Assembly: GCA_030168595.1 (NCBI GenBank)
Contig: CP115556.1
Span: forward strand, 1,612,001-1,676,000
Length of the DNA: 64,000 bases
Origin: Methanomassiliicoccales archaeon LGM-DZ1
Lineage (GTDB): Archaea > Thermoplasmatota > Thermoplasmata > Methanomassiliicoccales > Methanomethylophilaceae
Reading direction: 5' to 3'
Shown: in pieces, positions 15,266-62,574 of the stretch
Numbering within the stretch: the first letter of the stretch is position 1
Layout of the letters: each line of letters begins with the position of its first letter
Translations under genes and position numbers: made by a program
Notes under the pieces: generated by a model
The model's input: only the letters and a program-made list of their open reading frames with translations
Told to the model about the DNA's origin: nothing
The model's database searches: none

Positions 15266-15271
15266 AACGCC

Positions 15272-15291: not shown

Positions 15292-15405
15292 CATTTCCAT
15301 CGGGCATATGCCCTTCAAACGGACGGGGTCCCGCCCGCTATCCCTCTTGATTTATTACTTTCTTCGATAATGTATATATAATGTGGTCAGTTATCGCTTT
15401 GTGAT

Positions 15406-15424
15406 ATTGGTTATTATATCCAAT
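15406..15424 (+). promoter_or_regulatory. cbiMN promoter with inverted repeat around the TATA box
   Basis: ATTGG (15406-15410) and CCAAT (15420-15424) flank the TATA-like TTATTATAT. A dimeric repressor bound here would block TBP; a cobalt- or nickel-sensing regulator is a natural guess but not shown. Confidence 0.4.
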
Positions 15425-15435
15425 CAGTGATTGGG

Positions 15436-15476
15436 GGCCGTCTGTCGGCCATGTGCCCGCGCAGTCAGGGCGCGGG
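15436..15476 (+). promoter_or_regulatory. Two hairpins in the cbiMN leader
   Basis: GGCCG/CGGCC (15436-15440 with 15446-15450) and CCCGCGC/GCGCGGG (15456-15462 with 15470-15476, 7-nt loop) lie between the predicted transcript start and the GGGGG ribosome-binding stretch at 15481-15485. Such a leader is unusual here, where many transcripts are leaderless, and may regulate translation. Confidence 0.35.
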
Positions 15477-15492
15477 AACAGGGGGTAAATGT

Positions 15493-16530
15493 CTGCACAT
15501 AATGGAAGGTTACCTCCCGCTGGAATGGTGCATCATCTGGTATCTCGTGATGATCCCGTTCGTGGTGCTGGGGTTCAGGAAAATTGTCAGGATCGTACGT
15601 TCGCATCCGGAGCAGAGGATGCTGGTCGCTCTTTCGGGGGCGTTCATATTCCTGCTCTCGTCTCTTAAATTGCCGTCCGTCACCGGATCGAGTTCGCATC
15701 CGACAGGGACGGGGCTCGCAGTCGTCCTCTACGGGGTGTTCGTATGTTCTTCGCTCTCTATGATCGTCCTGATATTCCAGGCCCTGCTCCTCGCTCACGG
15801 AGGCATAACAACCCTGGGAGCGAACTGCGTTTCTATGGGTATCATCGGGCCTGCCGCCGGGCTTCTGGCATGGAGGCTGCTCAGGGGGCTCCGCGTCAGG
15901 GTCGTCCCTTCGATGTTCGCGGCGGCGTTCTTCGCCGACCTCACGACCTATGTGGTCACGGCGGTCCAGCTGACCATCTGCTACCACAGCAACGGATGGG
16001 GGGCGGCGTTCACCGACTTCATGACCACATATGCTGTGACCCAGATCCCCCTTTCGTTCGTCGAGGGCATGCTGTTCGCCATGTTCGCGAAGTACCTGCT
16101 CATCACCCGCCCGGACATCTTCGGCCAGGACAAGCCGGACAAGCCGATCAACTGGAAGGCGTACGCGGCCGGGTTCGCAATTATTGCCGTCGCTGTGGTG
16201 GGGATCCTCGCCTACGGGGACTCCCAGGGCATGGACTTCGGCGGGTCGGACGATGCCGGCTCCGGCGATATCGCGGACAACAACGGCGGGAGCTACGAAC
16301 CGTGGACATCCGGAATCTGGGGGGACTACGAGCTCCCCGGCGAGACCGAATCGATGCTGTTCGCCCTTCAGGCGGCCATCGGCGCCCTGATCATCGGTTA
16401 CTTCATCGGGATACAGCATGCCAAGAGAAAGCTGTCCGATAATGCCCCGCCCGCGAGGCCGCTGCCGGCCGCCGGCGATGGGGAGAAGAAGGACGAAGAG
16501 GACATCCTCGAGAAGATCTACGAGTTCTGA
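15493..16530 (+). CDS. cbiMN: Cobalt ECF transporter substrate-binding component, CbiM-CbiN fusion; apparent CTG start
   Basis: About 345 residues. The first 215 are CbiM, the membrane substrate-binding component for Co2+; residues about 220-320 are CbiN-like (IWGDYELPGETESMLFALQAAIG), so the two are fused. CbiM/NikM proteins need an N-terminal Met-His, because the amino group and His2 bind the metal. The first in-frame ATG (15502) begins at MEGYLP and would remove that histidine; starting at CTG 15493 gives M-H-I-M-E-G, the canonical N-terminus, with GGGGG eight bases upstream. A longer GTG start at 15427 gives a polar, non-signal-like extension. The CTG start is inferred. It is the first gene of cbiMN-cbiQ-cbiO-cbiO. 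Confidence 0.9.
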   Translation: MHIMEGYLPLEWCIIWYLVMIPFVVLGFRKIVRIVRSHPEQRMLVALSGAFIFLLSSLKLPSVTGSSSHPTGTGLAVVLYGVFVCSSLSMIVLIFQALLLAHGGITTLGANCVSMGIIGPAAGLLAWRLLRGLRVRVVPSMFAAAFFADLTTYVVTAVQLTICYHSNGWGAAFTDFMTTYAVTQIPLSFVEGMLFAMFAKYLLITRPDIFGQDKPDKPINWKAYAAGFAIIAVAVVGILAYGDSQGMDFGGSDDAGSGDIADNNGGSYEPWTSGIWGDYELPGETESMLFALQAAIGALIIGYFIGIQHAKRKLSDNAPPARPLPAAGDGEKKDEEDILEKIYEF

Positions 16531-30688: not shown

Positions 30689-30859
30689 ACTGCCGGCCCG
30701 TTCCGTGCGGGCCGGAAACGCCTTCCGCTCCATGCCTTCTGCAGATGATCCCGGAACGCTGTGTCCAGATGCGGAACGTTCGTTCGCCAGGTTTGGAAGA
30801 TACGTCCAATCGTTTTTATAATCTGATTAAGTTATCGAGTCCAGCAAAGCGTGGTAATA

Positions 30860-32506
30860 ATGCTGAAAACGACGAAATTGTTCATATCACTCATCGCCGT
30901 CTCCGCAATAATCGCCGCGGCGGCCGGGGCCGCCGTCTACGATGATTCCGACGGGGCGCATGAATACGACGGTTCCGTGCTCATCGAGGATCAGTACGGC
31001 GTCTATTTCTGGGCCCACGGCGACGGGGACGACTACGGAGAGGTCATAAAATCGATCGACGGCACCCGCGGCCTCGATATCGATTACACCGAGAGCAGCT
31101 ACGGTGTCATGGTCAGCGGCATCAACGGACTGTCCCAGACATCGGATTACTCCGGGTATTGGGCATTGTACCAGTACGATGACGGCAAGTGGGTCTACAG
31201 CAAGGTGGGCCTCAGCAGCGTCTCCACGGATGACTGCGAGTACATCGGCCTGTTCTATGTGAACTGCGATACATCCACCTACGCGGTCACCGCGGGCGGG
31301 CCCGACAACGTCGAGGTCCCGAAGGTCTGGAAGGCTGCCTACTTCACCGGTTCCCACAACGATGTCGTGTTCGCTATCCAGTCGCAGTCCGGCATGTACA
31401 TGTACGTCAACGGCCACGGCGACACGGTGTTCGACGCCTTCACGGATGCTGCTGAAACCTATAACATCCCCTTCGAGGCCAGCCATTCCAAGTACGGCGA
31501 CGGCATCCAGTCCCTCTTCGGCCTGTCGATGAGCTCTGCGACCGTCGGCGACAAGACCGTATGGACCTACTGGGCGCAGTTCGTCTCGAACAACAACGGC
31601 CCCTGGGCGTATGCGCAGATGACGATGGAGAAGCTCAGCACCGCAGTGTTCAGCCAGGTCGGCATCGCCTACGGCGACGGTTCCGAGATCACCGCCCCGC
31701 TCTATTCCCAATCGTCCGAGAAGGCATCCTCGCTGATCCTCATCGAGGACCAGTACGGCATCTACAGTTGGCTTTCCGCCGACAGCGGCGAGTATTCGAC
31801 CTATGCCGACATGCTCGTCGGCCTCGACGGGAAGAACGGGTTCGACATCGATTATACGAAGGGCAGCTACTTCAGCATCAACTCGATCAACGGGCTGGCG
31901 AACGACTATTCGAAGGCCAGCGAGAGCATCTACTATTACTGGGCCACTTACGTCTATGATGACGGGAAGTGGATCTACAGCGACAAGGCCGTCGACGGCC
32001 TCAGTACCTCGATGCACGATGTCATCGGCCTGTTCTACGTCAAAGGGACCATGGCAGGAACAGAGGAAGGAGGGCCCGAGAATGTTATCGTTCCGAACAT
32101 CTCCGATGCCGCTGCCTGGAACGGATCTACCGACGGCACGGTTTTCACGATCCAGTCCGAATCTGGGTACTACTTCTACATCAACGGGACCGGGAGCACG
32201 GTCTTCGATGCGTTCAGCGATGCCGCAAAGGATTACAACCTCCCCTTCGAGGCCAGCCATTCCAAGTACGGCGACGGAATAAAGTCACTGTTCGGCCTGG
32301 CGATGACCTCCAAGACCGACGGTACCACTACCACATGGACATACTGGGCGCAGTATGTGCTCGATGAAGCCGGCTCAGTCTGGGATTACTCCAGCTATAC
32401 GATGGAGAAGATCAGCACTTCCGACTGCTCGCAGATGGGCATCGCCTACGGCACCGGCAGCATGGGCGTGGGAGGCATCACCGCCCCTGTCTACAGCAAA
32501 AGCTGA
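30860..32506 (+). CDS. Secreted protein of four DUF4430-like (transcobalamin C-terminal-like) domains
   Basis: 548 residues. A signal peptide (MLKTTKLF then a hydrophobic run to about residue 26) is followed by two copies of a two-domain unit: A (about 38-150), B (155-275), A' (287-405), B' (410-540). Units share IEDQYGxY, DIDYT...SY, INGL, W..Y..DDGKW and VFDAF.DAA.....PFEASHSKYGDGI..LFGL. The periodic Trp/Tyr-rich pattern matches DUF4430, the beta-domain of transcobalamin and intrinsic factor. No C-terminal anchor is present. Next to btuF/btuC/btuD-like genes, it is probably a secreted or surface-associated corrinoid-binding protein; ligand binding is inferred. GTG 30851 is an alternative start. 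Confidence 0.78.
   Translation: MLKTTKLFISLIAVSAIIAAAAGAAVYDDSDGAHEYDGSVLIEDQYGVYFWAHGDGDDYGEVIKSIDGTRGLDIDYTESSYGVMVSGINGLSQTSDYSGYWALYQYDDGKWVYSKVGLSSVSTDDCEYIGLFYVNCDTSTYAVTAGGPDNVEVPKVWKAAYFTGSHNDVVFAIQSQSGMYMYVNGHGDTVFDAFTDAAETYNIPFEASHSKYGDGIQSLFGLSMSSATVGDKTVWTYWAQFVSNNNGPWAYAQMTMEKLSTAVFSQVGIAYGDGSEITAPLYSQSSEKASSLILIEDQYGIYSWLSADSGEYSTYADMLVGLDGKNGFDIDYTKGSYFSINSINGLANDYSKASESIYYYWATYVYDDGKWIYSDKAVDGLSTSMHDVIGLFYVKGTMAGTEEGGPENVIVPNISDAAAWNGSTDGTVFTIQSESGYYFYINGTGSTVFDAFSDAAKDYNLPFEASHSKYGDGIKSLFGLAMTSKTDGTTTTWTYWAQYVLDEAGSVWDYSSYTMEKISTSDCSQMGIAYGTGSMGVGGITAPVYSKS
31471..32276 (+). repeat. Internal duplication in the DUF4430-like protein gene
   Basis: A stretch of more than 30 identical bases, coding for FEASHSKYGDG, begins at 31471 and again about 774 bp later at 32245. 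It marks recent duplication of the roughly 250-codon A-B unit. Confidence 0.6.
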
Positions 32507-32573: not shown

Positions 32574-33932
32574 ATGGAGGGGACCCTGTGGAAGACCGTT
32601 CTGACCGTTGCGCTCCTTCTGACGGGATGCGCCGTCGGCGTAGCAGCCGTTCCGCACTCCTCCGCATCGTATGCCGCAGGGATCATCCTGGATTTCGGCG
32701 GCTATGACATCGATTACATGGGCCTCGAAGATTCCGGGGAGAACGCCGTCTCGGCGCTGGACAGCATCTGCGCCGGCAAAGGTTACGAGGTCGTGTATTC
32801 TGAAGGCTCGTCCGTGCCGTCGTCGGTGAACTCCCTGCCGGCTTCCGGGTCATCGGCATCATGGTCGCTCTTCGTCACATATACAGGCGATACAGGATGG
32901 ACCAGATGGTCCGGGGATCCCGCCGATGTCTCCGTGGGGGACTTCGCGGCGGTCTGCTGGGGCCTCTGCGGCGAGGGGGAATACCCGACGCCCGGCGTCG
33001 ATGCGACCGGCACATGCTACTACGGTTACGGGCAGTGCATGCGCATCGTCTCCATGTCGCCGTCCTGCACCGAGACCATCGCCGCCGCCGGCGCCGAGGG
33101 CCTGATAGTGGCCACGGACAGTTACAGCAACTATCCTGTGTCTGTAACCGAAGGGAAGAAGAACGGTTCCATATCCGAGATCGGAGGGTACACCAACCCG
33201 AGCTTCGAGACGGTCGCGGCCCAGAACCCTGACCTGGTGATAGGCATGGGGGACCAGTCCGTGCATCTGTCGATCATCGGCAAGATGCGCACCCAGGGCG
33301 TGAACTGCCTTGCGGTCTACGATGCGTCCACGGTCGAGGAGATCGAGGTCAACACCTACATGATCGGCGTAGCATGCGGCTACGAGATGCATTCGGTCCA
33401 GACCATCGGCCAGATACAGGATGCCCTCGACGAGCTGGCGTCCCTGGTCTCGGCCGGTTCTACTGACTCAGGCGTCATGGTCGCCCTCTCATCGGCCAAG
33501 TCGCCGTGGGTGGCGGGAGGCAGCACGTACGTGTCGGACGTCATCGCGCGCGCCGCATGCAGCAATGTTTACTCCAGTCTCAGAGGCTGGGTCCAGGTGA
33601 ACAGCGAAACGGTGGCCGAATACAATCCGAAGTGCATAATCGTGGTATCGTCGGACTACGAATGCTCCGAGAGCGGCTACAGCAAGATGCTGAGCTCCCT
33701 GAGCGCAGAATGGCGGAGCACCGATGCCTATGCGGACGGGAACATCTATCTGCTGACGGACGGGGCCACGGACCTGGCCTCCAGGCCGTCCACGCGCATA
33801 GCGCAGTTCGAGGAACTTATGTGCAGGATCCTCCAGCCCGCTATATTCACTGACATAGAGATCCCGCATTGGATCGGGGATGATTACACGGACTATCTGA
33901 CATATACAGCAGAGCTGGGATTCGCATCATGA
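32574..33932 (+). CDS. BtuF-like corrinoid-binding protein with N-terminal DUF4430-like domain
   Basis: 452 residues. The N-terminus has a hydrophobic segment ending in LTGC (Cys19), a plausible lipobox, so it may be a lipoprotein. Residues about 36-147 resemble DUF4430 (NAVSALDSICAGKGYEVVYS, W.LFVTYTGDTGWTRW, AVCWGL). From about 157 (RIVSMSPSCTETIAAAGAE) to 440 it is a periplasmic-type binding protein of the BtuF/FhuD class that delivers ligand to a BtuCD-type transporter. Coupling of a second putative corrinoid-binding domain to BtuF is unusual. It starts 67 bp after the previous gene and its stop overlaps the next start (ATGA). Confidence 0.85.
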   Translation: MEGTLWKTVLTVALLLTGCAVGVAAVPHSSASYAAGIILDFGGYDIDYMGLEDSGENAVSALDSICAGKGYEVVYSEGSSVPSSVNSLPASGSSASWSLFVTYTGDTGWTRWSGDPADVSVGDFAAVCWGLCGEGEYPTPGVDATGTCYYGYGQCMRIVSMSPSCTETIAAAGAEGLIVATDSYSNYPVSVTEGKKNGSISEIGGYTNPSFETVAAQNPDLVIGMGDQSVHLSIIGKMRTQGVNCLAVYDASTVEEIEVNTYMIGVACGYEMHSVQTIGQIQDALDELASLVSAGSTDSGVMVALSSAKSPWVAGGSTYVSDVIARAACSNVYSSLRGWVQVNSETVAEYNPKCIIVVSSDYECSESGYSKMLSSLSAEWRSTDAYADGNIYLLTDGATDLASRPSTRIAQFEELMCRILQPAIFTDIEIPHWIGDDYTDYLTYTAELGFAS

Positions 33933-36900
33933 ACGGCCGGCGCCTGGCCGCCGTATTGGCGGTCCTGGCGGTCATACTGTCCGGCGCGGCCGTGCAGGCA
34001 TCGCAGGGCTCCGATGCGGACACGGGCCTCTGGGTCCTCATCGACGAGGGCGACGGCGACACGTATTGGGCCGCCGCCGACCAGACCCAGACGACGGTCG
34101 GAGGGGTCCTGCAGTCGGCGGCCGAGAGCCTCGGCCTGGAGTACTCGGCAAGCGGCGGCGCCGTCACCGTCGGCGGCATGAGCGAGGTAACGGTGGGCGG
34201 ATCGGAGCATTCCGAGACCAGCTCATGGAGGTACTATGTCTGGGACTCCTCCGGGGAATGGACGGACATGACCTCATCATCGTTCCTGTCAGAGGCCCCT
34301 GCCGCATCCAGCGTCGCGCTGGGATTCTATCCGGCCGGCACCGTCCCCACCGAGACCCCAGACGACATGTCCTCTTGGACCATGATCCGCGGGAACTCAT
34401 CGCTCACCAAGGTCCAGGGAGGGGACGACACCTCCGGGTCCGGCCCGGCCACCGCGATGTCCAAATCCCTGGGGCAGAACTTCGTCGACGCCAATCCCCT
34501 CATAGCCCGCGGATGCGTCTACGTGGTCTACGGCGGATATTACAGCGGGGACAGCATGCCCACGCTCTACTGCTTCGACAGGTACACCGGCGCCGAGAAA
34601 TGGCATGTGTCCTCGCCCGAAGGCGTCGGTTACGAGACCCAGACAGGTGCCATCGCCGGAAACTACTACTATTGGCCGGTCACCAACGGCCACATCCTGA
34701 AGGTCCCCCTGTCCGGCCCCGGCACCGAGAGCTACACGGTGGAGGTATCCTCGGTGCTGACGGGTTCCTCAGGCTCCCTGACGGTCAGCGCCGTAGAGTA
34801 CAAGCTCAGCTCGGGATCGTCGTATGTCTCGGCGGAGAAGGAGGAAAGGGACACCGACGTGTTCATCATCCCGGCGGAGATCGGATCCGCCTATGACATC
34901 AATGTGACGTCGGACGGCACGGTCTACCATGGGACCGTGACAGTATCGTCCTCATCCAAGGGCGGGGTATCGGTCTCCTTCGACGGAGACTCGATCAAAT
35001 CCTATACGGACAGCACCGCCCCCGCATACAGCGACGTCAGCAGCGCCTATGTGATGAAGAAGTTCGCCGCCTTCGACAGCTCCCGCACCATAGAAGGGCG
35101 CTCGATGTACGCCACCGGCGTTGCATCCATCACCGTGTGGGGAGGCGCCCTGTTCTTCGGCACCTCCAGCGGCTACACCTATGCCATGGACTTCGACCTG
35201 AACGTCCTGTGGAGGACGGACACCCTGGGCCAGAACTACTACGACTGCCCCTCGGTCTCCGGCGGGAACGTCTATCTGGGGAACTACAACGGGCAGCTTT
35301 ACGTCCTGGACGCCGCCACCGGCGATGTGAAGGCCAGTGCCAGCATAGCATCGTATGCTTCCAAGGTCTACGGCAGCGGCGGGAGGGTATGCTCTCCTGT
35401 CGCCGTCGGGGACCTCATCTTCATGAGCGTCTCGGACGGGCTGGGGATGAACAGCGTCCAGGGAGGGCTGCGCGTGTACAGGTTCGACGGCTCGTCCCTG
35501 ACGGAGGTCCTCAGCGACGACTCCGTCGGCCTGTCGTCCACCTTCATGACCTATGTCAGCTCCGAGGACGGCTCCTGGGTCTATTTCCTGTGCGACAAGG
35601 GCCTCTGCAGGGTCTCCGCCGACGGGAGCGGGGCTGCGGAGACCGTGGATTCCGATGTCAGCGGGATCCGCGGCTCGCCCGTGAACGTCGGCGGGAAATA
35701 CCTGGTGTACCAGGACTATGCTTTCAGCAGGAACGGCAGCGGAGGGACAATCCATGTGGTCTCATTGGACGGGGAGGAGGTCGGCAGCATATCCCGTCCG
35801 TCCGACATCGACCAGTGGACGATGACCTCGGTGCTGGTATGCGGGAGCATGATATACATCGGCACCGACGGAGGATTCGCGATCCTGGAGTCCGACCTGA
35901 CCGTGGGGGTATCGTCCGCGGGGGACAGCGGGGGCCTGCCGGGCTGGGCCATCTGGGCCGCGATCATCCTCATCGCGCTGGCGGCGCTGGCGGCGACGGT
36001 CATCCTGCTGGCGCGCAGGGCCGGGAAGCCTCCGGGGAAGTACCTGTCGGAGAAGCTCGGGGAGATGAGCGGGTTCCGCAACGAAGCCCTCTCCAAGACC
36101 GCGGCGAACAAGCGCCGCCTGCTCTTCGTCCTCATCCTGGGCACGGCCCTGGCCGCCGCCGCGTTCCTCTGCTGCCTAGCCTTCGGCCCGTCCCACAGCA
36201 TGTCGCTGTCCGAGGCGGCCGGCAACCTGGTCTCGGCCATAGACAAAGGCGGGAAAGGGCTGACCAATGACGAGCTCTATGTCTACGAGTCACGCCTGCC
36301 CAGGGCCATCGCCGCCATGGCGGTGGGCATGGGCCTCTCGGTCGCAGGGTGCATGTACCAGGCGGTCATCAGGAACCCGCTCGTCGACCCGTACATAATG
36401 GGAGTGTCCTCCGGGGCCGGGACCTTCGCGGTGGCCGCCATCGCCAGCGGGTTCACCCTCTGGGGGCTGCTCAGCAGCTCGAACTTCATGGTGCCAGTCC
36501 TCGCCGTGATCGGGGGCCTGCTGGCCTTCGGCCTCACGATGCTCATCGCCGTCCTGGCCGGGAGGACCTCGACGTCGTACGTCCTGGCCGGAGTGGTCAT
36601 CGGGCTGGCATTCTCATCGATCCAGACGGTGATACTGACCACTTCCGATTCCGAGGACCTGCAGAACGCGGTCTCCTGGCTGTACGGAAGCTTCACATCC
36701 GTCGACTGGGACAATGTCTGGCTCATATTCTTCCCGACGGCCTTCATGTGCGCCGCCTCTCTCCTCTGGGCCAAGGAGCTCAACCTGGTCCTCCTGGGGG
36801 ACGACAACGCCCAGCAGATGGGGCTCAACGTCAGGAGGTTCGATGCGGGGATGCTGATCCTGGCGTCGGTGCTGACATCGGTCTGCGTGGCCTTCGTCGG

Positions 36901-37141
36901 CATCATAGGCTTCGTCGGTATGGTCGTTCCCCACATCTGCAGGATGATCCTGGGAAGCGACCATCGCCTGGTGCTGCCGGCGTCCATCGTGCTGGGGGCG
37001 GCCATGATGCTCCTGGCCGACCTTCTCGCCAGGATGATCATGATCCCGCAGGAGCTGCCGGTGGGGGCCATCACCACGGTGATCGGCGTCCCGCTGTTCG
37101 CCTACCTGCTCATCAAAAGGGGGAAGATGTACAGTGGATGA
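33929..37141 (+). CDS. BtuC-type ABC permease fused to extracellular DUF4430-like and beta-propeller domains
   Basis: 1070 residues, about three times normal BtuC length. Order: signal/membrane segment (1-25); DUF4430-like domain (about 32-140, TVGGVLQSAAESLGL, SSWRYYVWDSSGEW); PQQ-type beta-propeller (about 165-660) with blades such as LYCFDRYTGAEKW and LYVLDAATGDVKA and an inserted strand-rich stretch near 270-355; a membrane helix (670-697, WAIWAAIILIALAAL); a charged linker; then a complete FecCD/BtuC permease (730-1070) with ESRLPRAIAAM, GAGTFAVAA and GFVGMVVPHICR. It would place a receptor permanently on the outside of the permease. One uninterrupted frame; no sign of a sequencing join. 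It overlaps btuF-like by 4 bp and btuD-like by 8 bp. Confidence 0.88.
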   Translation: MNGRRLAAVLAVLAVILSGAAVQASQGSDADTGLWVLIDEGDGDTYWAAADQTQTTVGGVLQSAAESLGLEYSASGGAVTVGGMSEVTVGGSEHSETSSWRYYVWDSSGEWTDMTSSSFLSEAPAASSVALGFYPAGTVPTETPDDMSSWTMIRGNSSLTKVQGGDDTSGSGPATAMSKSLGQNFVDANPLIARGCVYVVYGGYYSGDSMPTLYCFDRYTGAEKWHVSSPEGVGYETQTGAIAGNYYYWPVTNGHILKVPLSGPGTESYTVEVSSVLTGSSGSLTVSAVEYKLSSGSSYVSAEKEERDTDVFIIPAEIGSAYDINVTSDGTVYHGTVTVSSSSKGGVSVSFDGDSIKSYTDSTAPAYSDVSSAYVMKKFAAFDSSRTIEGRSMYATGVASITVWGGALFFGTSSGYTYAMDFDLNVLWRTDTLGQNYYDCPSVSGGNVYLGNYNGQLYVLDAATGDVKASASIASYASKVYGSGGRVCSPVAVGDLIFMSVSDGLGMNSVQGGLRVYRFDGSSLTEVLSDDSVGLSSTFMTYVSSEDGSWVYFLCDKGLCRVSADGSGAAETVDSDVSGIRGSPVNVGGKYLVYQDYAFSRNGSGGTIHVVSLDGEEVGSISRPSDIDQWTMTSVLVCGSMIYIGTDGGFAILESDLTVGVSSAGDSGGLPGWAIWAAIILIALAALAATVILLARRAGKPPGKYLSEKLGEMSGFRNEALSKTAANKRRLLFVLILGTALAAAAFLCCLAFGPSHSMSLSEAAGNLVSAIDKGGKGLTNDELYVYESRLPRAIAAMAVGMGLSVAGCMYQAVIRNPLVDPYIMGVSSGAGTFAVAAIASGFTLWGLLSSSNFMVPVLAVIGGLLAFGLTMLIAVLAGRTSTSYVLAGVVIGLAFSSIQTVILTTSDSEDLQNAVSWLYGSFTSVDWDNVWLIFFPTAFMCAASLLWAKELNLVLLGDDNAQQMGLNVRRFDAGMLILASVLTSVCVAFVGIIGFVGMVVPHICRMILGSDHRLVLPASIVLGAAMMLLADLLARMIMIPQELPVGAITTVIGVPLFAYLLIKRGKMYSG

Positions 37142-37940
37142 GGTAAAGGCCCCGTTGCTGGAGGTCAGGGACCTGTGCAAGACGTACGAGAACGGCTACA
37201 GGGCGGTGGACGGAGTGTCGTTCAGCCTGCCGGAGGGGCGCCTGGTCGGGCTCATCGGGCCCAACGGGTGCGGGAAGTCCACCATGATGAAGTGCATCAA
37301 CAAGATGCACCAGATCACCTCCGGGGACGTCCTCATCGACGGGGTATCCGTGAAGGGCCAGACCCCGAAGCAGATATCGAAGCAGGTGGCGAACGTCCCT
37401 GCCGAGCTTAAGAACAGCTTCGGCCTCTCGGTGTCAGATACGGTCATGCTCGGGCGCTATCCCTACCTGAGGAACCTGTGGTGGGAGACCGACGAGGATG
37501 AGACTGAGGCGGTCGACGCCATGAAGAAGTTCGGCGTCTACGGCCTCCGCGACCGCAGGATCGACATGCTGTCCTCCGGCGAGAGGCAGAGGGTGCTCAT
37601 CGCGAAGGCCTATGTGCAGAAGCCGAGGCTTATGCTTGTCGACGAGCCCACGTCGCACCTCGACATGAAGTACAAGCTCAATGTGATGGAGTACCTCAAG
37701 GGACTCACGGGCGGCAACATGACCGTCCTCGTCGCCGAGCACGACATCTCCCTCATGGCGAGGTACTGCGACATATGCCTCATAATGAAGAAAGGGCATC
37801 TGGTGGCCTCCGGCGATCCCAAGAAGGTCATCACCGAGGACCTGATCCGCGACGTCTACGACGTGGAGGCGACCGTCGGCCTCGACCGCGAGGGCGAGAT
37901 CTACGTGCTGCCGAAGAGGTACGTCGGGAAGGACTTCTGA
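37134..37940 (+). CDS. BtuD-type ABC transporter ATPase
   Basis: 268 residues, starting at GTG 37134 within the end of the permease gene and preceded by GGGGGAAG. Walker A GPNGCGKST, signature LSSGERQRVLIAK, Walker B LMLVDEPTSHLD, switch His in AEHDISLMARY. It belongs to the FepC/BtuD group that drives uptake of corrinoids, haem or siderophores. With the permease and the BtuF-like protein it forms a complete importer; the corrinoid assignment rests on the DUF4430-like domains and on the cobalamin genes elsewhere in the window. An iron-chelate substrate cannot be excluded. Confidence 0.92.
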   Translation: MDEVKAPLLEVRDLCKTYENGYRAVDGVSFSLPEGRLVGLIGPNGCGKSTMMKCINKMHQITSGDVLIDGVSVKGQTPKQISKQVANVPAELKNSFGLSVSDTVMLGRYPYLRNLWWETDEDETEAVDAMKKFGVYGLRDRRIDMLSSGERQRVLIAKAYVQKPRLMLVDEPTSHLDMKYKLNVMEYLKGLTGGNMTVLVAEHDISLMARYCDICLIMKKGHLVASGDPKKVITEDLIRDVYDVEATVGLDREGEIYVLPKRYVGKDF

Positions 37941-42591: not shown

Positions 42592-45500
42592 ATGTTCATT
42601 ATGTCCAATTACAGTCGCAAGGCAACAGGAGTCGGAAGGATTGACCGTAAGAAGACGCTGTTCGCGCTTTTCGCTGTCATCATAATGCTGCTGTCATCCG
42701 CAGCGATCCTCGGCGGGAGCTCTGCTTCCGATGAAAGCTCCGGAAGCAGCAGTTCGGTGCATTCCATAACCTACTACGAAGATGAAGCGAGCCTCAACAG
42801 CAACACTAACGGAGTGACGGTGGAATACGACGGCATCGCATCCACCGAGTACAACCCGGCTTACAGCGATGTGTTCAAGAACTCAGGCTGGAGCAAGCTC
42901 AAGCTTAGCGAAACGACGAGCGTCGGTAGCATAACGTCCAAAACCGTTTCGAGTTACAAAATCAATGTTACTGTGCCTCTGAGTGAAGGTATAACACTGG
43001 ATCTTTCCGACTGGAAAATTTCCGGAACAATTACTGCTGCTAAAGCAGAGTTGTATAGCCGGTACCCGGGTTATTGTACTTCAAGTCCAACTGTTAGTAG
43101 TGACAATGTTATCACATATTCACCAGCTACTTACTATGATGGTAGCAAATACAGCGGAAACGCTACAGCCACTGCTACTATCACAATATCGCGCTTAACC
43201 ACGCCCTCGTCAATATCTGTGCCTTATGTTTTCTGCGGCTGGACTTCCGACGGTTCGGACCTGATCTACCCGGGAGATGTCGTTGACAAGAGCATAAGTA
43301 AGCTCTATGCGAAATGGGCCACGCCGGATGTGTTCCTGTATTCATCTCTTACGCCGGCTTCCGGAAGCACGCTCAGCGGCAAACCTGCATCGCCGACATA
43401 TGCCACATATATGCTTCCGATCAACAGCAACGGCGGATATACGAGTTACAGTTCGATACAGTATTCGGACGGCCGTACCGAGCCTACGATGTTCACCACG
43501 ATCTATGAGATCAACGGGGCGTTTCCAACCAATCTCAGTACTGGAACATACCGTTCCAACGATCCGGATGCCACTGTCAATTGGAATAAAACAGTATACT
43601 GTGATGGAGACGTGATCATCGACAGCGTGCATCTCAACTGCTCCGCCAGCGGAGACCACGGAGATCCTCATTATAGGAGTTATCCGCTGTTTGCGAATGG
43701 ACATCGCCTCATCCTCGGTACAGGCCTCGATGCCACCAGCGGATACCGGATGCAGGTCTTCGGGGGATTGAGCAGCGGGACACTGGATTCAGCTATCGAA
43801 ACAGGGAAATCCATCGTTTCATACGATGACGGTCCGAACGGTCTGAACGGGAAAATCTTCGACATAGGCACGTTCCTGATCGTCCACAGCGGAACATATT
43901 ACAGTATCGGGGCTGTGGGATGGTGCAATCTCGGCACATCTGGCAGTCCGCTCTCGTCATACATGGTGCTGAAAGGAGGAACCATAACCGACACTGTCGT
44001 CGGAGGAAGTTCGAGGACCATATGGGGCGCTGTCAACCGTTCTATATCCGACAGCAACAAAGACCAGCTTTTGGGAGGGACGTTCACATATGTCACCGGC
44101 GCCAAAATGACCGGGGACACCTGGGAAGAAAGCAAACTGGGCTATGCCAGCGTCGGCGATAACAGGACCGAGTCATCGATCCTCGAGGGCGGACCCGGAG
44201 GTTCGGGCGGCAAGGGGGCCGTGTACGGCGCGGCTCACACCTTCATCACTGATAAGGCCAAGCTGTGGGATGCTCAGGCCGGAGGAAGAAGAGGAGATTC
44301 CACTACCCAGTTCGCGTATATGGAGATCAGTGGCTCAGCTGTAATCAGCCATATAGCATGCGGTACCATCACCGACGGTAACAGCAGCTCCGGGAATCGT
44401 GACTCGGTCGGCAATGTCAAGATCGCCACCTATGACAATTGCAAGGTCGGGATGCTCTTCGGAGCAGGTTATGACACATGGGCGTACCCTAACTACACCA
44501 GTATGCTGAGCGGAACCATCGATGTTGAGATCAACGGCGGGACGATCGGCTATGTGTACGGCGGAGGCTACAGAGGTTCCGTAGGTACTTCATCCAGCAA
44601 TGTGGCCATCAAGGTCGCCGTCAACGGCGGGACGGTCCTCAAGGATGTCTACGGGGGCGGGAGGGGAGGAGTGGACAAGATCCTCCACAACGCAAGTACC
44701 GGGGCCAGGGAGGGCAGTTCCTCATATTGGAACTCCATGGGAAAATCCTATGTGTACGGCACGGTCAGCGTCCTCATCGCCGGCGGGACCGTCGGAGGCA
44801 ATGTGTACGGCGGCGGGGAATCGCTTCCCAGGCTGTCCGGTTACAACGCCGAGGGTGGCATCAATGTTGCATCGGTCATAGGCAGCACGAGCGTGACCGT
44901 CACCGGAGGGGAGATCAAAGGGAGCGTTTACGGAGCCGGAAAGGGAGTGACTATCGACAGTTTCTCCGCTCAATCTAATTCCGGCACTGTGACCTACTCT
45001 GGCACAGTTCCGGGGACGACCGACGGAGGGAACTATTCCCAATCATATGTCGTCAACAGTTCCGGGAATTACATTTGGCTCGACTGGTTCTCTGGATTCA
45101 CTCCCACATACGACACCAGCATCATTGAGAGGTACCTAGAGTTCGCCAAGGTCGAGGGGAGCTCCAGCGTCAACGTGTCCGGCGGGACCATAGGAGGAAG
45201 CGTCTACGGCGGCGGCGCATACGGAAGGATCACCGGAGATGCCAGGGTAGCGATCTCTGGAGGTTCCATCGGAGGAAGCGTCTACGGCGGCGCCATCGGC
45301 CACAGCGGGATCACCGCGGTGGAAGGAGACAGGTACATCGACGTCAGCGGGACCGCGACGATCACGGACAACATCTACGGCGGGACTGCGTACGGGAATG
45401 ACGGGGTCAGCGAAAAATTCGACGAATCCGATGCGACGATCTGCATTCAATCCGGCTCCATCGGGGGCTCCCTGTTCGGAGGAGGCTTCCAGGGAACCAC

Positions 45501-48500
45501 TTACGGTGATGTCAAGATATACATCGGATACAGGGTCAGCGATCATTTCAGGCTGGAAAGCACCGATGACAGGACAACCATAACCATAGGGGGATCTGTC
45601 TACATCGGGGGAGATGTAGGAGAGATCGGCGAGAACGATACTCCGTATACCCAGTACCTCGTCATGGGAGGAGGGAACCTCAGCATCTTCGGTGCATATT
45701 CCGACATCTCCATAAGCGGAAGCCTAATGGGCAGCGGGAACGCCTGCCTCACCAAGGGAAATACTGTCATCTACTGCGACCGTTTCATCAATCTCAGCGA
45801 GATGCATGCGATCCACCGTGCCACCACTGTCACCCTGTCCGGAACGATGATCACGCTGAAGGGAAGGGGGACTGTCGACGCTAATTCGGCGGATTCGCTC
45901 TATTCTCTGTTCATGATCGTCACGCTGCAGCTGAGGGATTCCTCGGTCATCACGCTCGACAGTGCGGTGGACGCCGTGACGGACTATTACAGCCAGAACA
46001 AGGACGGCAATCCGACCACTCCCTCGTCCCCTTCCAACAAGATCATCATCGGAAGCGGCAACTCGTTGACCATAAGGGGGGCCGGCAGCTACGGCTCCTC
46101 GTACGGCACCGTGTCCGGATACACCGTCCTGTCTGTCAGCAGCAGCGACGGCGGTTACGGGGTCTGCGTCCTCGGGAGCACCGCCTCCTCAGGAGGTTTC
46201 GTGGCCACCAGGAACGGTACCTATGTGCAGGCCGACTTCATGGACGTCTCGGATTACTGCAGATGCTGGTTCATCTCCGGTACCATCACGAGCGCCCAGT
46301 CGGTCAGGCTCAGCTACACGTCCGGAACGGCATCCGAATCCGTGGACTTCTCCATCATCAAACTGCGCTCCGATACCGTCCTCAGGTACATGGGAGGCTC
46401 CTTCGTAACGGCGAACACCGCTTACAGCCTGGTGGAGACCCCGTCGGAAACGAACCAGTTCGGTGTATCCATCGTCAGCAGCACCAGCTCCGAATCAGAA
46501 AGCGTGAATGTTGTGCCTCACGCATCCGATTCCAAAATCGGAACGATACTCCCGACTGATTCGCAGAACCCAACCCTCAGCGTCACCGTGAGCGGGATCT
46601 TCGGGGACGAATCGCACCACATCGGATACTGCACGATATACCTCCAGGAAGCGAGCGCCATCTCGTACGTCGGGGACGACGGCAGCGAATCTACCAGCTA
46701 CGTGCTCACCAACAGCATCCAGCTGACGGTCGAGATATACACCGAGGGCAGCGGGACCAATCTTGAGAATGATTCTGTCACCATCGGGGCCGTCCACGGT
46801 TCCGGTTCCGGGGACATCATGATACCCAGCAAGCTGAACGGCTACACTGTCGCCGTCGAAAGCGTCAGCTCCCCCGACGGATCGGGCTCGACGCTCACCA
46901 TCGCGGCCGAGATGAACCTCGACAACACCTCCGGATGGAGCAGCACGAGCAGCGCCTTCCAGATCAGCCCGTCTCTCGAAGGGAGCACCCTCGGGGAGCT
47001 CAACGGAGGATACACAGCCAGGCTGGTCTTCTCGGTCACAGGGTTCGACAGCACCGAGAGCGAGGTCTACACCGTGGTCCTGTCGCTGAGCTACGAGGGC
47101 ACCGTGAGAACGGTCACCGTCACGGTCACCGTCCAGGCGCTCGCCGATATCAACGTCACCTTCGTCGATATGAGGCAGGATTCCGAGGTCATCTACGCGT
47201 TCCCGTACGGAACGGTGATAACCGAGGCCGACTGCCCTCCGACACTTAGCAATTTCATCGGCTGGTACTATGAGTCGTCCTTCGAGAGCGTCTACAGCTA
47301 CAGCACTCCCCTGACCGCGGATACGACGCTGTACGCCAGGTACATGCTCACCGTCACCTTCGACAGCCAGGACGGGACCGTCGCGCAGATGTACGTGGCG
47401 GACAGCGAAGGAGGGACCCTCATCACCGCTCCTTCCGATCCTTCCAGGGAGGGATACACCTTCAGCGGATGGTACACCGAGAAGGACTGCATCAACAAGT
47501 GGGATTTCACCCTCGACAAGGTCGTCCGCAGCATGACCCTGTACGCAGGATGGGTCGGCCAGGACATCACCGTCACGTTCACGTACAACGGCACCCAGAT
47601 CACAGACTCAGGCACTGCTTACACGGCCACCGTTCAGTACGGTTCCGTGTTCGGAGTCCTGGACGAGGCCAAGTCCTCCGCAGAGCACAAGGACGTCACG
47701 ATACTGGCCGCCGCCGAGAGCATCCTCAGGACGAACTACCTCAACAACGGCGAGATGTTCATCCGCTGGCAGGCGGAGGTCTCGGACAGCGTGACCATAC
47801 CCATCTATGATGATACAACGGTCGACGTGAACGTCATCCCCAGGGTCGACGGCGCCATATCGTCGACGGTCAACCTCATCGCCGTCACCTCGGACGTCGC
47901 CCTGCAGGTCACCATGGACGGCAACTCCAGCGATCTCACCACGAATGTCTCCGCCCCGGTATCGTTCCTGGTGTACCCCGACAGCGATTCCTTGCTGTCA
48001 GACTCCTCAGGTTCCTATTGGGAGTTCGTTTTCAACCTCAACGATGCGACCCGCTCGGGATGGCTCCTCGCAGGCTGGTCCGAGTCGAAGGATGCTCAGC
48101 CCGACGATGATGACACCTATGGGAACGGAACCTCCGTGACCGTCAAGGTCTATGTCACGGACGCGAGCGGCAACGCGATCGACAGCCCGAACTACGAGAG
48201 GACCTACTATGCCGTGTGGGACCACATCCCGTACACGGTGACGATCATGGAGAGCTCCCACGGGACCATCGACGCTTATTACAACGGCGTGTCTGGGAGC
48301 ACTTTCACCGCATACTACGGCGACCGCATCTCCCTGAGGTTCACCCCGTACAGCGGCCAGGAGCTCGCCAGATGGGTCATCAGCGGAGAGGGGACGATCC
48401 CCGATGACCAGATAAGCTCGTCCAGCGCGACTCTGATCGTCACCGGAGACTGCGCCGTGTACGCCAACACCGTAGGGCCCCAGATCGTGCAGCTGTACGT

Positions 48501-57871: not shown

Positions 57872-58987
57872 ATGAGGTTCGAGCCGAGGAAGGAGATAGC
57901 GGACCTCCCCGCGACCGTTCACGGGGGCCAGGGATGGCGCTATGCCGGCGTGGAGGACTACAGTCAGAACCTGAACCCGTTCGGTCCTCCCCCGGAACTT
58001 GCTGATGCGATAGTCGGCGCCATGTCCCAGATGGGCCACTATCCCGACGCTTCGAACGCCGAGCCCCGCCGCGCCCTCGCAGAGGCGTACGGCGTCCCTG
58101 CCGAATGCATCTCCATGGGCGCCGGGTCCTCGGAGATCATCAGGGACTTCCCGAACGTCTTCTGCGCGAAAGGCGACAGGGTCCTTCTCATGCATCCGTC
58201 CTTCGCCGAGTACGCCCAGCAGTGCCGCATCGCGGGCGCCGAGGTGTCCTACATGGAGCTGGAGCCGGAGAACGGCTTCAGAATAGATGAGGTGGCCCTC
58301 TCCGCCAGGCTCAGGGAGGAGCCCTATAAGGCGGTCTACATCTGCAACCCCAACAACCCCACCGGGGTCATCGAGGACAGGGCCAAGCTGGAGCGCATCA
58401 TCTCAGAGGCTTCGGACCTGGGCACCCTGGTGTTCCTCGACGAGACCCTGCTCGCCCTCTCGGACCCCGACGGCACGAGGACCATGATCCCGCGCATCGG
58501 CAGGTACGATAACCTCGTCATCGCCGATTCCTATACCAAGAGCTTCGCGGTCCCCGGATTGAGGATCGGGTTCTGCATATCCTCGCCCGAGATCGCGGAG
58601 CAGATGGCCAAGGTCCAGCTCCCGTGGAACCTCGGCGTCGCCGAGCAGGCGGCCGCCGTCTATCTGGCGGGAAGGCTGGATTATGTGAGGTCGGCGGCCT
58701 GCGAGCTCCGCAGGGAGTCCGAGCGCATGGAACGCGAGCTGTCCGGCATAGGCTTCCCGTGCGTGCATACCGACTCGTTCTTCAGGTTCGCGCCTGTCGG
58801 GACCGCCGCCCGCGACGGCCGCGGCCTGCAGGAGAAGATGCTCCGCCATGGGATCATGATCAGGGACTGCGCCTCCTTCGGCGGCAGGTTCGCCGGATAC
58901 GTGAGGTACTGCGCCAAGGACAGCGAGCGCGACGGCCGCTTCATCGAGGCGGCGGAAGCCGTGATGAAGGAAACGGAAGGCCTTTGA
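57872..58987 (+). CDS. cobD: CobD-like threonine-phosphate decarboxylase (PLP enzyme)
   Basis: 371 residues of the histidinol-phosphate aminotransferase/CobD fold. HGGQGWRY and YSQNLNPFGPP mark the N-terminus, CNPNNPTGV and FLDETLLAL the cofactor region, and the PLP lysine is in DSYTKSFAVPGLRIG. CobD makes aminopropanol phosphate, the linker that CbiB attaches to cobyric acid; the next genes are cbiB, cbiZ, cobS and cobY, which decides CobD over HisC. Start ATG 57872 is chosen from the N-terminal match, with a TATA-like TATTATTATCG at 57834-57844 and a very short leader. Upstream in-frame ATGs at 57722 and 57857 are less likely. Confidence 0.9.
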   Translation: MRFEPRKEIADLPATVHGGQGWRYAGVEDYSQNLNPFGPPPELADAIVGAMSQMGHYPDASNAEPRRALAEAYGVPAECISMGAGSSEIIRDFPNVFCAKGDRVLLMHPSFAEYAQQCRIAGAEVSYMELEPENGFRIDEVALSARLREEPYKAVYICNPNNPTGVIEDRAKLERIISEASDLGTLVFLDETLLALSDPDGTRTMIPRIGRYDNLVIADSYTKSFAVPGLRIGFCISSPEIAEQMAKVQLPWNLGVAEQAAAVYLAGRLDYVRSAACELRRESERMERELSGIGFPCVHTDSFFRFAPVGTAARDGRGLQEKMLRHGIMIRDCASFGGRFAGYVRYCAKDSERDGRFIEAAEAVMKETEGL

Positions 58988-60028
58988 ATGGAACTGTGGG
59001 CCGACGGTATACTGATCGCTGTCGCCGCGCTGCTGATCGACCGCTACATCGGCGACGTCCCGAACAAGTACCATCCCCTGAGGTGGATGGGGAACCTGCT
59101 GGACGCCATGGACCGCAGGATACACGACCGGAAGTCCAAGATGTGCGTCCTCTACGGGTTCCTGGGATATGTCGTCATCCTCCTGATCTTCGGCGGCGCG
59201 GCGCTGACTATCACGGCAGTCCTCCGCAGGGGCCTGGAGGGCGTGATGGAGTTCAGCATCTTCGGGATCGAGGGAGACCTGGGGGAGGTCCTGTGGATCA
59301 TCGTCTCCGGGCTGTTTCTCAAGGTAACCTTCGCGCTCTTCGCGTTCAGGAGGTTCTGCTCTCCGATACAGGACGACCTCAGGGAGGGCCGCCTGGACGA
59401 TGCAGCCGACAAGACCCAGATGATGGTCAACCGCAGGACCAGGGGCATGGACGAGGCGCACATCGCCTCGTCGTGCTGCGAGACGGTGTCCGAGAACCTC
59501 GTGGACAGTGTGGTGTCCCCCCTCTTCTACTACGGCCTCCTGGGGCTCCCCGGGGCCATCGCTTTCAGGTGCTCCAACATGATGGACGCCATGTGGGGCC
59601 ACGTGAACGAGAAATACTACGTCCTGGGCCATTTCCCGGCGAGGCTCGACGACGTCCTGGGGTTCATCCCCTCCAGGCTCGCCCCGTTCTTCGAGCAGCT
59701 GGCCGCCTGGCTCATGCGGCTAAAGGGCAGGAAGTCTGCGGTGAGGGCCGCCGTCCGCGAGCACAGGAAGACGCCCAGCCCCAACAGCGGATGGCCAATG
59801 ACGGCCGCTGCCGCCGCCCTGGGGATCTCGTTCGAGAAGGAAGGGGTCTACGTCATGGGCGAGGGCCCCCTTCCGTCGGTAGACGATATATCCAGATGCT
59901 GCCGCCTGATAGAGGCCACGTCCCTGCTCTTCGCTGTCATAGCGGTGTTCCCCCTGTCGGCGCTGCTGGGAGTGCATGTACAGGTTTTCGCAGAGGACTT
60001 CATCCTCGGTCTGCTAGGAGTGTTCTGA
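58988..60028 (+). CDS. cbiB: Adenosylcobinamide-phosphate synthase CbiB
   Basis: 346 residues, integral membrane protein with four to five helices. The family signature LLIDRYIGDVPNKYHPLRWMG is at the N-terminus, and CETVSENLVDSVVSPLFYY and PSPNSGWPMTAAA are the other conserved blocks. It condenses adenosylcobyric acid with aminopropanol phosphate from CobD. It starts on the base following the cobD stop, so the two are translationally coupled. Confidence 0.95.
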   Translation: MELWADGILIAVAALLIDRYIGDVPNKYHPLRWMGNLLDAMDRRIHDRKSKMCVLYGFLGYVVILLIFGGAALTITAVLRRGLEGVMEFSIFGIEGDLGEVLWIIVSGLFLKVTFALFAFRRFCSPIQDDLREGRLDDAADKTQMMVNRRTRGMDEAHIASSCCETVSENLVDSVVSPLFYYGLLGLPGAIAFRCSNMMDAMWGHVNEKYYVLGHFPARLDDVLGFIPSRLAPFFEQLAAWLMRLKGRKSAVRAAVREHRKTPSPNSGWPMTAAAAALGISFEKEGVYVMGEGPLPSVDDISRCCRLIEATSLLFAVIAVFPLSALLGVHVQVFAEDFILGLLGVF

Positions 60029-60029
60029 A

Positions 60030-61151
60030 ATGAAGTATGTGCGCGGTTGCGAGGTGATCGACGAGGGCGGCGGGAACGCCACCGCCGTCATCCGCCTCAC
60101 AGAGAAGATGGAGGTGCTCAGCAGCGCCCCCATGAACGGAGGGGAGGCCCTCACCGATACGGTGTTCATCATGCAGGTCCCCCACGACTACGACAGCGTG
60201 GACTACCTGGCCGACCTGGAGGCCGTCAGGCGCAGGCATTCCCTGCCCGAAGACTCTGTGGGGTTCATGACGGCGGCCGAGGTGAAGCATGTGTTCTCCG
60301 TCTCGGAGGACAGCTTCGGCGATGCGAGCGCGTTCGTGGCCGCCACGGCGGGCGCCACCAACGCGGTGGAGGCCGGGCAGGAGCTGGACCGCTGGGAGGA
60401 GAGGAAGGCCAGGTCTGAGGAGATATCGAGGAGGCTCGCCGGAACCATCAACATCGTGGCGGTCTCATCGGTGCCGCTAGATACCGCCGGCAAGACAAAC
60501 CTGTTCATCCCGATCGTGGAGGCCAAATCCCTCGCGATGCGCGACATAGGGTACAGGGAGACCGGCACCACCTCCGATGCGATGGCCGTCATCTCCCCGG
60601 TATCGCCGAGGAGGTTCGGCTTCGCGGGCACAGGCACCGACATCGGCATATCGGTCGCCAGAGGGGTCAGGAAGGCGGTCGCGGAGTGTCTGCGCAAGCG
60701 CGGGGAATCGCCGGAGCCGGAGAGCGCCCTCAGGATGCTGCTGCGCCACAAGGTCACCCCCGGGATGCTCTGGGACTGCGCTTCCGCTCTCGGCCTCGAC
60801 GAAGGGGTCCGCGGGAAGTTCAAGGAGACCGCGGAGGCCATGGCCTCGGACCCGGACATATGCGCCGTGGTATGGGGCATCCTGTCGGCCGGCTCTGCAT
60901 CCGACAAGGGGCTCCTGTGCGGGCAGGACCCGGATTATCCGGTAGAGGTCCTCTCGGACGGGACCTGGGGGATATTCCTGGCAGGGAAGATATCTGAGGA
61001 CAGGGGAGGCGATTCCACCATCGATCTGATGAGGATGCGCCCTCTCAAAGACACTATGATCAAAGAATACGCCGAGGTCGCCGCCTACGGGCTGGTGGGC
61101 GGGGTCGTCGGTTACATGACGGGGTTCTCCGATGAGCGACGGCAGTGCTGA
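60030..61151 (+). CDS. cbiZ: Adenosylcobinamide amidohydrolase CbiZ with extra C-terminal domain
   Basis: 373 residues. Residues about 1-235 are CbiZ, which removes the nucleotide loop or aminopropanol from incomplete or foreign corrinoids so they can be rebuilt; GFMTAAEV, ATAGATNAVEAGQ, INIVAVSSVPLD and GTGTDIGISVA are typical. From about 240 an additional domain of about 130 residues begins (MLLRHKVTPGMLWDCA, then DPDICAVVWGIL and AYGLVGGVVGYMTG). It resembles the archaeal CobZ/PgpA-like alpha-ribazole phosphatase pattern, the step otherwise missing from this operon; that match is from memory and tentative. The end overlaps cobS by 20 bp. Confidence 0.88.
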   Translation: MKYVRGCEVIDEGGGNATAVIRLTEKMEVLSSAPMNGGEALTDTVFIMQVPHDYDSVDYLADLEAVRRRHSLPEDSVGFMTAAEVKHVFSVSEDSFGDASAFVAATAGATNAVEAGQELDRWEERKARSEEISRRLAGTINIVAVSSVPLDTAGKTNLFIPIVEAKSLAMRDIGYRETGTTSDAMAVISPVSPRRFGFAGTGTDIGISVARGVRKAVAECLRKRGESPEPESALRMLLRHKVTPGMLWDCASALGLDEGVRGKFKETAEAMASDPDICAVVWGILSAGSASDKGLLCGQDPDYPVEVLSDGTWGIFLAGKISEDRGGDSTIDLMRMRPLKDTMIKEYAEVAAYGLVGGVVGYMTGFSDERRQC

Positions 61152-61974
61152 ATCAGGAAAGGGAGGCATCGCCGCCGCCCTGAAGGCGATGATCTCGTTC
61201 TTCACCATCATCCGCCTCGATGTCGGGCAGACGGAGTTCGAATCCATGGAACGCAGGTTCTGGCTGGCGCCGGTCATCGGCCTGCTCAACGGCCTTGTCG
61301 CCGGGTTCATCGTGCTGCTCCTCATCGAATGCGGGGTCTCCTCGACGGTCGCGGCGGTGTTCGTGCTCGTCACTCCGTTCCTGTTCTCCAAATTCCTGCA
61401 CTTCGACGGGCTGACCGACTTCGGGGACGGGATGGTTGTCTCTTCTGGTAAGCGCGAGGACCACATACGCGCCCTCAAGGACACCCTGGTCGGCGCCGGA
61501 GGCATCGGGACGGCCATAACCGTATGCCTGATATCCTTCGCCTGCTATTGCGGGCTCTCGATATACTGGCTCATCTTCCCGGCCGTTATGATCGCCGAGA
61601 TCGCCACCAAGAACGCCCAGGTGTTCGCGGCGGCCTGGGGGGAGCCCGGGAACGGCATGGCCTCCCGCCAGGTGGGGTTCACGAACAAATCCTCCGCTGT
61701 GCGTTCCCTGATCCTCTCGGCCGTTCTTTTCATCCTCGTGTGGCTGGCCTACATCATCATCGCAGGCAACCTTGGATGGCACAAAGAAGGCCAACTGGTC
61801 GCGTACTTCGCCGTGCTGGCACTTATCATATCGTCCGTCTCGGGCTGGATCATGGCGCGCAACGCCAACCGGGTCTTCGGGTTCGTGAACGGCGATATCC
61901 TCGGGGCATCGAACGAGATCTGCCGCGCGGCCGTGCTGACGGCCTTCTGCATCATAGCCGGGCTGTGGTTCTGA
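61132..61974 (+). CDS. cobS: Adenosylcobinamide-GDP ribazoletransferase (cobalamin synthase)
   Basis: 280 residues, membrane protein with about six helices. CobS joins adenosylcobinamide-GDP to alpha-ribazole (or its phosphate), completing the lower loop. Motifs FLHFDGLTDFGDGM and GAGGIGTAITV are the conserved Mg2+-binding and family blocks, and NGDILGASNEICRAA is the C-terminal block. The start lies inside cbiZ (20-bp overlap) and the stop abuts cobY. Confidence 0.95.
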   Translation: MSDGSAESGKGGIAAALKAMISFFTIIRLDVGQTEFESMERRFWLAPVIGLLNGLVAGFIVLLLIECGVSSTVAAVFVLVTPFLFSKFLHFDGLTDFGDGMVVSSGKREDHIRALKDTLVGAGGIGTAITVCLISFACYCGLSIYWLIFPAVMIAEIATKNAQVFAAAWGEPGNGMASRQVGFTNKSSAVRSLILSAVLFILVWLAYIIIAGNLGWHKEGQLVAYFAVLALIISSVSGWIMARNANRVFGFVNGDILGASNEICRAAVLTAFCIIAGLWF

Positions 61975-62574
61975 ATGGAAGCGCTCATCAACGCCGGCGG
62001 CAAGGGCACCCGCATGGGCCCGATGGGGATCGAGAAGCCCATGCAGCCCATCGGCGGCGCGCCGGTGGTGTGGAGGGCGGTGAGCGCCATGCTGTCGGCG
62101 GACGGCATCTCCCGCGTGGTGGTGTCGGTGAGCCACAACACTCCCGAGACCGAACGCTACCTGAACGGCATGGGGATAGAGACCATCAGGACCTCCGGCG
62201 AGGACTTCATGATGGACCTGCATGACGCCTTCAGCGTTCTTGACGGGGATTACGTCATGACCTGCCCTTCCGACATGCCCCTGATAACCGACATCGCCGT
62301 CGAGGAGGCCCTGAGGGCCTTCCGCCCGGAGATGGAGTCCATGATCGTGATGGTGGATGCCGGCCTGGTCCGCAGGATGGGCATAACCCCGTCGTACACC
62401 AGGGAGATAGACGGGAAGGAATGGGTGGTGTCCGGCCTCTCGGTGATGGACAGGAAGGGCACGCTCGAGGGCAGGTACCTCAGGGAGCACTGCCTCCTGA
62501 CCGATTGGCGCGAGCTCGCGGTGAACGTCAACACGCCTGCCGAGCTCGAGCTCGCGAGAAGCATAATCGGATGA
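61975..62574 (+). CDS. cobY: Adenosylcobinamide-phosphate guanylyltransferase CobY
   Basis: 199 residues, nucleotidyltransferase fold. It activates adenosylcobinamide phosphate with GTP and is the archaeal replacement of the bacterial CobU. The NTP-binding loop is INAGGKGTRMG (residues 5-15) with EKPMQPIGG following, and CPSDMPLIT holds the metal-binding acidic residues. It starts immediately after cobS and is the last gene of cobD-cbiB-cbiZ-cobS-cobY. CobT, which would make alpha-ribazole phosphate, is not in the window. Confidence 0.93.
   Translation: MEALINAGGKGTRMGPMGIEKPMQPIGGAPVVWRAVSAMLSADGISRVVVSVSHNTPETERYLNGMGIETIRTSGEDFMMDLHDAFSVLDGDYVMTCPSDMPLITDIAVEEALRAFRPEMESMIVMVDAGLVRRMGITPSYTREIDGKEWVVSGLSVMDRKGTLEGRYLREHCLLTDWRELAVNVNTPAELELARSIIG

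Follow-up and report, generated by a model that had tools for sequence, protein, structure and literature searches.

A single open reading frame joins an extracellular receptor module to a complete BtuC-type permease in the window, the 64,000-nucleotide stretch of DNA from Methanomassiliicoccales archaeon LGM-DZ1 that was analysed here. We consider it fairly likely that this frame encodes the permease of a type II importer with a covalently attached corrinoid-capture receptor that would feed the separate binding protein BtuF, and that the arrangement goes back to one fusion of a formerly free receptor. The fused architecture is a family-wide trait of single origin, not one odd gene. The joining of a DUF4430 plus propeller module to BtuC is an apparently undescribed variant of a known importer.

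Architecture of the fused receptor-permease

The frame at 33929-37141 (+) is open over 1070 codons, without internal stops, as the earlier note had described it. All its parts lie on the + strand: a signal segment (33929..34009; hydrophobic core at residues 3-27 by hydropathy), a DUF4430-like beta-grasp domain of the SLBB, transcobalamin-like type (34010..34408), a PQQ/BamB-type beta-propeller (34409..35938), a single membrane helix with a positively charged tail (35948..36022), and a cytoplasmic linker leading into a complete FecCD/BtuC permease (36023..37138). The hydropathy profile displayed the N-terminal signal segment, a helix at about residues 674-698 (peak 2.89, also a helix in the AlphaFold model), and then the permease helices, in line with the signal segment and extra helix claimed earlier. 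Because BtuC is oriented N-in, this profile leads us to expect a topology in which the ectodomain lies outside, one helix passes inward, and a short cytoplasmic linker connects to BtuC.

The permease half matched FecCD (PF01032) at residues 743-1063 above the Pfam cut-off, with an E value of 2e-84, covering profile positions 3-311 of 311, which upheld the reading of a full permease, and it aligned with the E. coli BtuC structure 1l7v (E 4e-48). Residues R789, R792, and R1035 are the equivalents of arginines 56, 59, and 295 of E. coli BtuC, which we take to be the BtuF-docking residues. A complete FecCD domain, a binding protein and an ATPase encoded in the same operon, and the docking arginines were thus all found, as in a FecCD/BtuC type II importer. 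The best B12-specific BtuC equivalog model, PRK03784, gave 213 bits against the 334 needed, and the assignment of B12 specificity therefore rests on gene context. The whole genome (1.77 Mb) yielded 16 FecCD-type matches, several of them grouped at C1:1595030-1606638, a short way upstream of the window.

The propeller was recognized by Pfam PQQ_2 at residues 399-533 (E 6.5e-8, above cut-off), and a profile of 33 relatives searched against the PDB returned strong matches to designed and natural PQQ propellers and to BamB. AlphaFold modelling of the ectodomain gave a beta-grasp domain and a BamB-like propeller, with a Foldseek match to BamB at E 2e-14, so that the domain order previously read by eye was reproduced by structure prediction. 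A propeller insert at about residues 286-386 is clade-specific and modelled with low confidence. No homology to BtuG was found, the top structural and sequence matches being BamB/PQQ propellers.

The claim of a DUF4430-like domain was sustained as remote homology with a beta-grasp model, but not as a Pfam call: no match to PF14478 (DUF4430) above the gathering score was obtained for the fused domain or its 32 relatives. The homology runs through a chain of profiles, in which the domain of the fused protein matched its counterpart in distantly related receptors that stand alone (99.0%, E 5.5e-18), and that counterpart in turn matched Pfam-grade DUF4430 proteins (96.3%, E 1.5e-9); the direct comparison of the fused-protein domain with Pfam-grade DUF4430 proteins was weak, at only 15.6%, and that with the repeats of a secreted protein encoded upstream reached 93.7% (E 1.8e-7). 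The AlphaFold model of the domain (md198adeedb70, pLDDT 88) has the element order E-E-H-E-E-E-E-E-E with a hairpin after the helix, and this is the order given by Burroughs et al. (2007, PMC1796856), who described a hairpin insert after the helix in the transcobalamin-like SLBB clade. Foldseek returned beta-grasp folds, all weak and none below E 0.001, with a best TM-score (of target) of 0.60-0.63 for 3u7z, and a direct sequence match between the SLBB domain and solved structures was not found. Taking profiles and model together, we accept the N-terminal domain as a putative remote DUF4430 homologue outside Pfam membership.

The fusion is not a product of chance or of sequencing error, because dozens of genomes share the fused frame and both halves are kept under purifying selection; a frameshift artefact, one of the earlier note's grounds for refutation, is thereby rejected. 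Compared with a 94%-identical copy, dN/dS was 0.12 for the propeller, 0.22 for the helix and linker, and 0.05 for the permease. In another genome of the same species, the copy (G012:C1:74223-77433) appears as two frames overlapping near residue 231, probably an assembly frameshift.

Operon context

The fused gene stands in a conserved operon on the + strand. A secreted protein at 30851..32506 contains four DUF4430-like, transcobalamin-C-terminal-like repeats (repeat HMM, 4 copies), and 4 of 21 repeats related to these match Pfam DUF4430, with a best E value of 2.9e-5. It is followed by a BtuF-like binding protein (32574..33932), which confirms the separate BtuF proposed beside the fused ectodomain and is composed of an N-terminal DUF4430-like domain (about 32634-33008) and a Pfam Peripla_BP_2 domain (33009-33929, E 2e-27). 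The former aligns with the receptor's domain, and its profile matched the secreted-protein repeats at 94.6% (E 6.8e-8). DUF4430-like domains thus extend beyond the fused permease to BtuF and the secreted upstream protein. Downstream lies a BtuD-like ABC ATPase (37134..37940; ABC_tran E 1.9e-32), whose match to the corrinoid ABC transporter ATPase model PRK09536 (E 5e-62) is below that model's cut-off. The start and stop codons of btuF and the permease overlap at 33929/33932 (ATGA) and those of the permease and btuD at 37134/37141, a pattern as in a translationally coupled operon. The sole Rfam match within the window was one tRNA, with no cobalamin riboswitch.

The order of secreted DUF4430-repeat protein, DUF4430-BtuF, receptor-BtuC, and BtuD is conserved in relatives, and a gene related to the secreted repeat protein lies upstream of BtuF in many loci. 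BtuF is present in every complete locus, and the ectodomain is therefore an addition to BtuF and not a replacement for it.

Several variations on this organization were encountered. Locus L070 contains an 876-aa frame (5314-7941, +) with two DUF4430-BtuF units head to tail, a double binding protein. In L057, a BtuF-like domain forms the C-terminus of a 1586-aa protein (11061-15821, -) with DUF4430-like and other repeats, whose neighbours are two permeases, one fused and the other stand-alone. The fused frame at L055:6907-10485 (-), in genome G013, is longer by about 200 residues, which lie between propeller and permease and include two further DUF4430-like repeats. At L042:1318-4870, two genes lie directly upstream of the fused-receptor operon: one encodes a fusion of NifH with a nitrogenase-component-like part, the other a further nitrogenase-like protein. 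Within the window itself, a 3495-aa secreted repeat protein (List_Bact_rpt, MBG; 42592-53079) is located between the importer operon and a cobinamide-salvage cluster.

Distribution and origin of the fusion

Of 102 Methanomethylophilaceae genomes, 62 carry an unbroken propeller-permease frame by our own count from the match list; they cover 11 of the family's 14 genera. When public genomes were searched with the ectodomain, with a 9-row subset of the 33-row alignment as query, matches came from Methanomassiliicoccales/Thermoplasmata MAGs only, several of them from ruminant guts. In the permease tree, all fused copies fall in one clade (96/94). Nested within it are stand-alone permeases from L051, L053, and L057, each encoded beside a fused copy, with which they probably form heterodimers.

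The sister clade (100/99) includes permeases of split loci (L056, L072, L081, L082, L096, L109, and L111) together with the permease of a truncated second locus in the genome studied here. At the split loci, a free receptor with signal segment, SLBB domain, propeller, and helix is followed directly by BtuC and then by BtuD. These free receptors are single-pass proteins of 617-655 aa that end right after the equivalent of the fused protein's extra helix, and the latter is for this reason best read as the anchor of an ancestral free receptor. Both states occur in one genome of a sister family (G240, loci L095 and L096). That the receptor exists in both free and fused forms argues strongly for joint action of receptor and permease. 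Elsewhere in the class (Thermoplasmata), in families less closely related, the receptor has no adjoining BtuC; in the operons examined there it stands beside a Pfam-grade DUF4430 protein, as at L100, where this protein is accompanied by CbiQ, a double ABC ATPase, and an ECF S component.

The simplest reading makes the fusion a late event. The receptor would at first have been a separate protein, anchored by one membrane pass and serving ECF-type importers, would then have become associated with BtuFCD, and would have been fused to BtuC once, in the Methanomethylophilaceae or an ancestor. From these loci we infer the direction of the series, from an ECF-associated receptor through a receptor beside BtuC to the fusion.

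The second related BtuCD locus of the same genome (C1:998000-1012000; L075:5080-7556) encodes a permease 52% identical to the fused one, preceded only by the last ~130 receptor residues and the membrane helix. The DUF4430 domain, the first propeller blades, and BtuF were not detected at L075; it looks like a truncated split locus and was set aside as an example of the intact split form. N-terminal extensions of 390-450 aa at some loci were likewise rejected, their arginine-rich start being an out-of-frame reading of the overlapping btuF. In-frame TGA codons in some frame matches were considered as recoding, and the inspected cases proved to be two adjacent genes of the split form.

Ligand, mechanism, and significance

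In the mechanism we favour, the DUF4430/SLBB beta-grasp domain and the propeller on the outer face would bind cobamide or cobinamide, the ectodomain acting either by itself or jointly with the secreted DUF4430-repeat protein. This would raise the local corrinoid concentration at the transporter, and the ectodomain would hand the corrinoid to BtuF, which itself bears a DUF4430-like domain; capture probably lies upstream of BtuF, because BtuF is retained. Loaded BtuF would dock on BtuC, ATP would be hydrolysed by BtuD, and the imported corrinoid would be remodelled by CbiZ/CbiB/CobS. Ligand binding, hand-over, and a gain in uptake are likewise inferred. A more specific version, put forward tentatively, is a relay of DUF4430-like domains running from the secreted protein through the permease ectodomain to BtuF before the pore, or direct entry from the tethered receptor, which would make the ectodomain a high-affinity capture device, a BtuG-like lid in an ABC permease.

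The ligand of the FecCD permease and its binding protein cannot be assigned by sequence, because heme and siderophore homologues, FhuB among them, score like B12 ones for both. It is on this ground that a non-corrinoid ligand, whether another tetrapyrrole, heme, a siderophore, or another soluble cofactor, has to be weighed, and the 16 FecCD-type matches in the genome, the NifH/nitrogenase-like genes adjoining L042, and the remark that archaea with SLBB proteins are often B12 producers and might be scavenging another compound (Burroughs 2007, PMC1796856) point the same way. We nevertheless regard it as unlikely, since CbiZ/CbiB/CobS directly adjoin the importer in several genera and DUF4430 is the C-terminal domain of transcobalamins (PMC4350170). 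The cobinamide-salvage genes directly follow btuD in L047, L048, L052, and L110, and are divergent, beside btuF, in L055. In the window, a salvage cluster encoding a CobD-type aminotransferase, CbiB, CbiZ (E 2.1e-45), CobS (E 1.5e-35), and a nucleotidyltransferase (57887..62574, +) lies on the importer's strand, 20 kb downstream. CbiZ is the archaeal cobinamide amidohydrolase. Salvage-gene adjacency supports corrinoid as the ligand, and with it the corrinoid link that had been suggested for the transporter. Dependence of the Methanomassiliicoccales on corrinoid methyltransferases and their expanded BtuC set have been reported (Genome Biol 2024, PMC10804542). The genome contains the de novo pathway marker CbiC in addition to CbiZ; salvage therefore probably supplements synthesis, and uptake is not obviously essential.

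The ectodomain might instead serve mainly as a scaffold or surface anchor that docks BtuF and the secreted repeat protein, or keeps the importer attached in the envelope, with no ligand binding of its own. The retention of BtuF in every complete locus would suit such a role, as would the resemblance of the propeller to BamB, a scaffold, and the suggestion that extracellular partner domains act as tethers and that SLBB proteins form complexes together (Burroughs 2007, PMC1796856). Yet across the class the receptor retains a DUF4430-like domain whose invariant residues include tryptophans and glycines, and it is also found without BtuF or BtuC; we hold the scaffold reading to be unlikely, if slightly less so than a non-corrinoid ligand. 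Far less probable is the presence of two products in the cell, with internal initiation or proteolysis freeing the permease and leaving the fusion of little mechanistic meaning. An in-frame ATG at residue 713 is indeed preceded by the purine-rich GGGGAG, and split forms exist; however, this methionine is not conserved, its place being taken by I, V, or L in the closest relatives, and the fusion, of one origin, has been retained through the family. Capture by a covalently attached receptor, followed by delivery to BtuF, remains our preferred explanation.

The system resembles E. coli BtuCDF, a type II ABC importer, in its FecCD permease with the same docking arginines, its BtuF-like protein, and its BtuD-like ATPase. 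E. coli BtuC, however, has no ectodomain or extra helix, and here DUF4430-like domains are found on the permease, on BtuF, and on a further secreted protein. A closer precedent for the receptor is the SLBB plus propeller protein of Clostridium, which, with SLBB operons containing CbiO/CbiQ, was predicted to scavenge B12 (Burroughs 2007, PMC1796856). These scavengers share the surface DUF4430/SLBB and propeller domains and a paralogous SLBB partner in the operon, and other Thermoplasmata examined here have their ECF version; they are separate proteins associated with ECF modules, whereas the present receptor accompanies BtuFCD and is covalent to the permease. The Bacteroides surface lipoprotein BtuG is an extracellular propeller that captures B12 at sub-pM affinity on behalf of an outer-membrane transporter (PMC10404256), and the B12-binding domain of the surface lipoprotein BtuH (PMC8941943) also serves a B12 transporter. 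By analogy, this capture step makes capture by the ectodomain plausible. BtuG is a seven-bladed, lipid-anchored lid on an outer-membrane TonB transporter and a partner of BtuB, whereas the present propeller is BamB-like, is encoded in one frame with an ABC permease, and is held by a membrane helix. The BtuC clades described for the Methanomassiliicoccales concern the same order and its expanded BtuC repertoire, and in one cultured strain BtuFCD was noted beside adhesin-like proteins; that analysis used 281 aligned positions, and the words fusion and propeller are absent from its text (PMC10804542). Among open-access papers, no report of a BtuC/FecCD permease with such an ectodomain was found. 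Of the earlier assertion that no described transporter has this architecture, the novelty of the fusion to BtuC thus stood within that literature, but the DUF4430 plus propeller combination has a precedent (PMC1796856).

To build a receptor into the B12 permease would be an uncommon design among ABC importers. The three states, in which the receptor serves an ECF importer, stands beside BtuC, or is fused to it, form a natural series for the recruitment of a scavenger and its merger with a transporter, and a testable prokaryotic counterpart to the transcobalamin domain of animals. The finding is of interest to specialists in transporters and methanogens. Methanomassiliicoccales produce methane from methyl compounds via corrinoid enzymes and compete for corrinoids in guts, and the built-in receptor would suggest how these archaea win scarce corrinoids.
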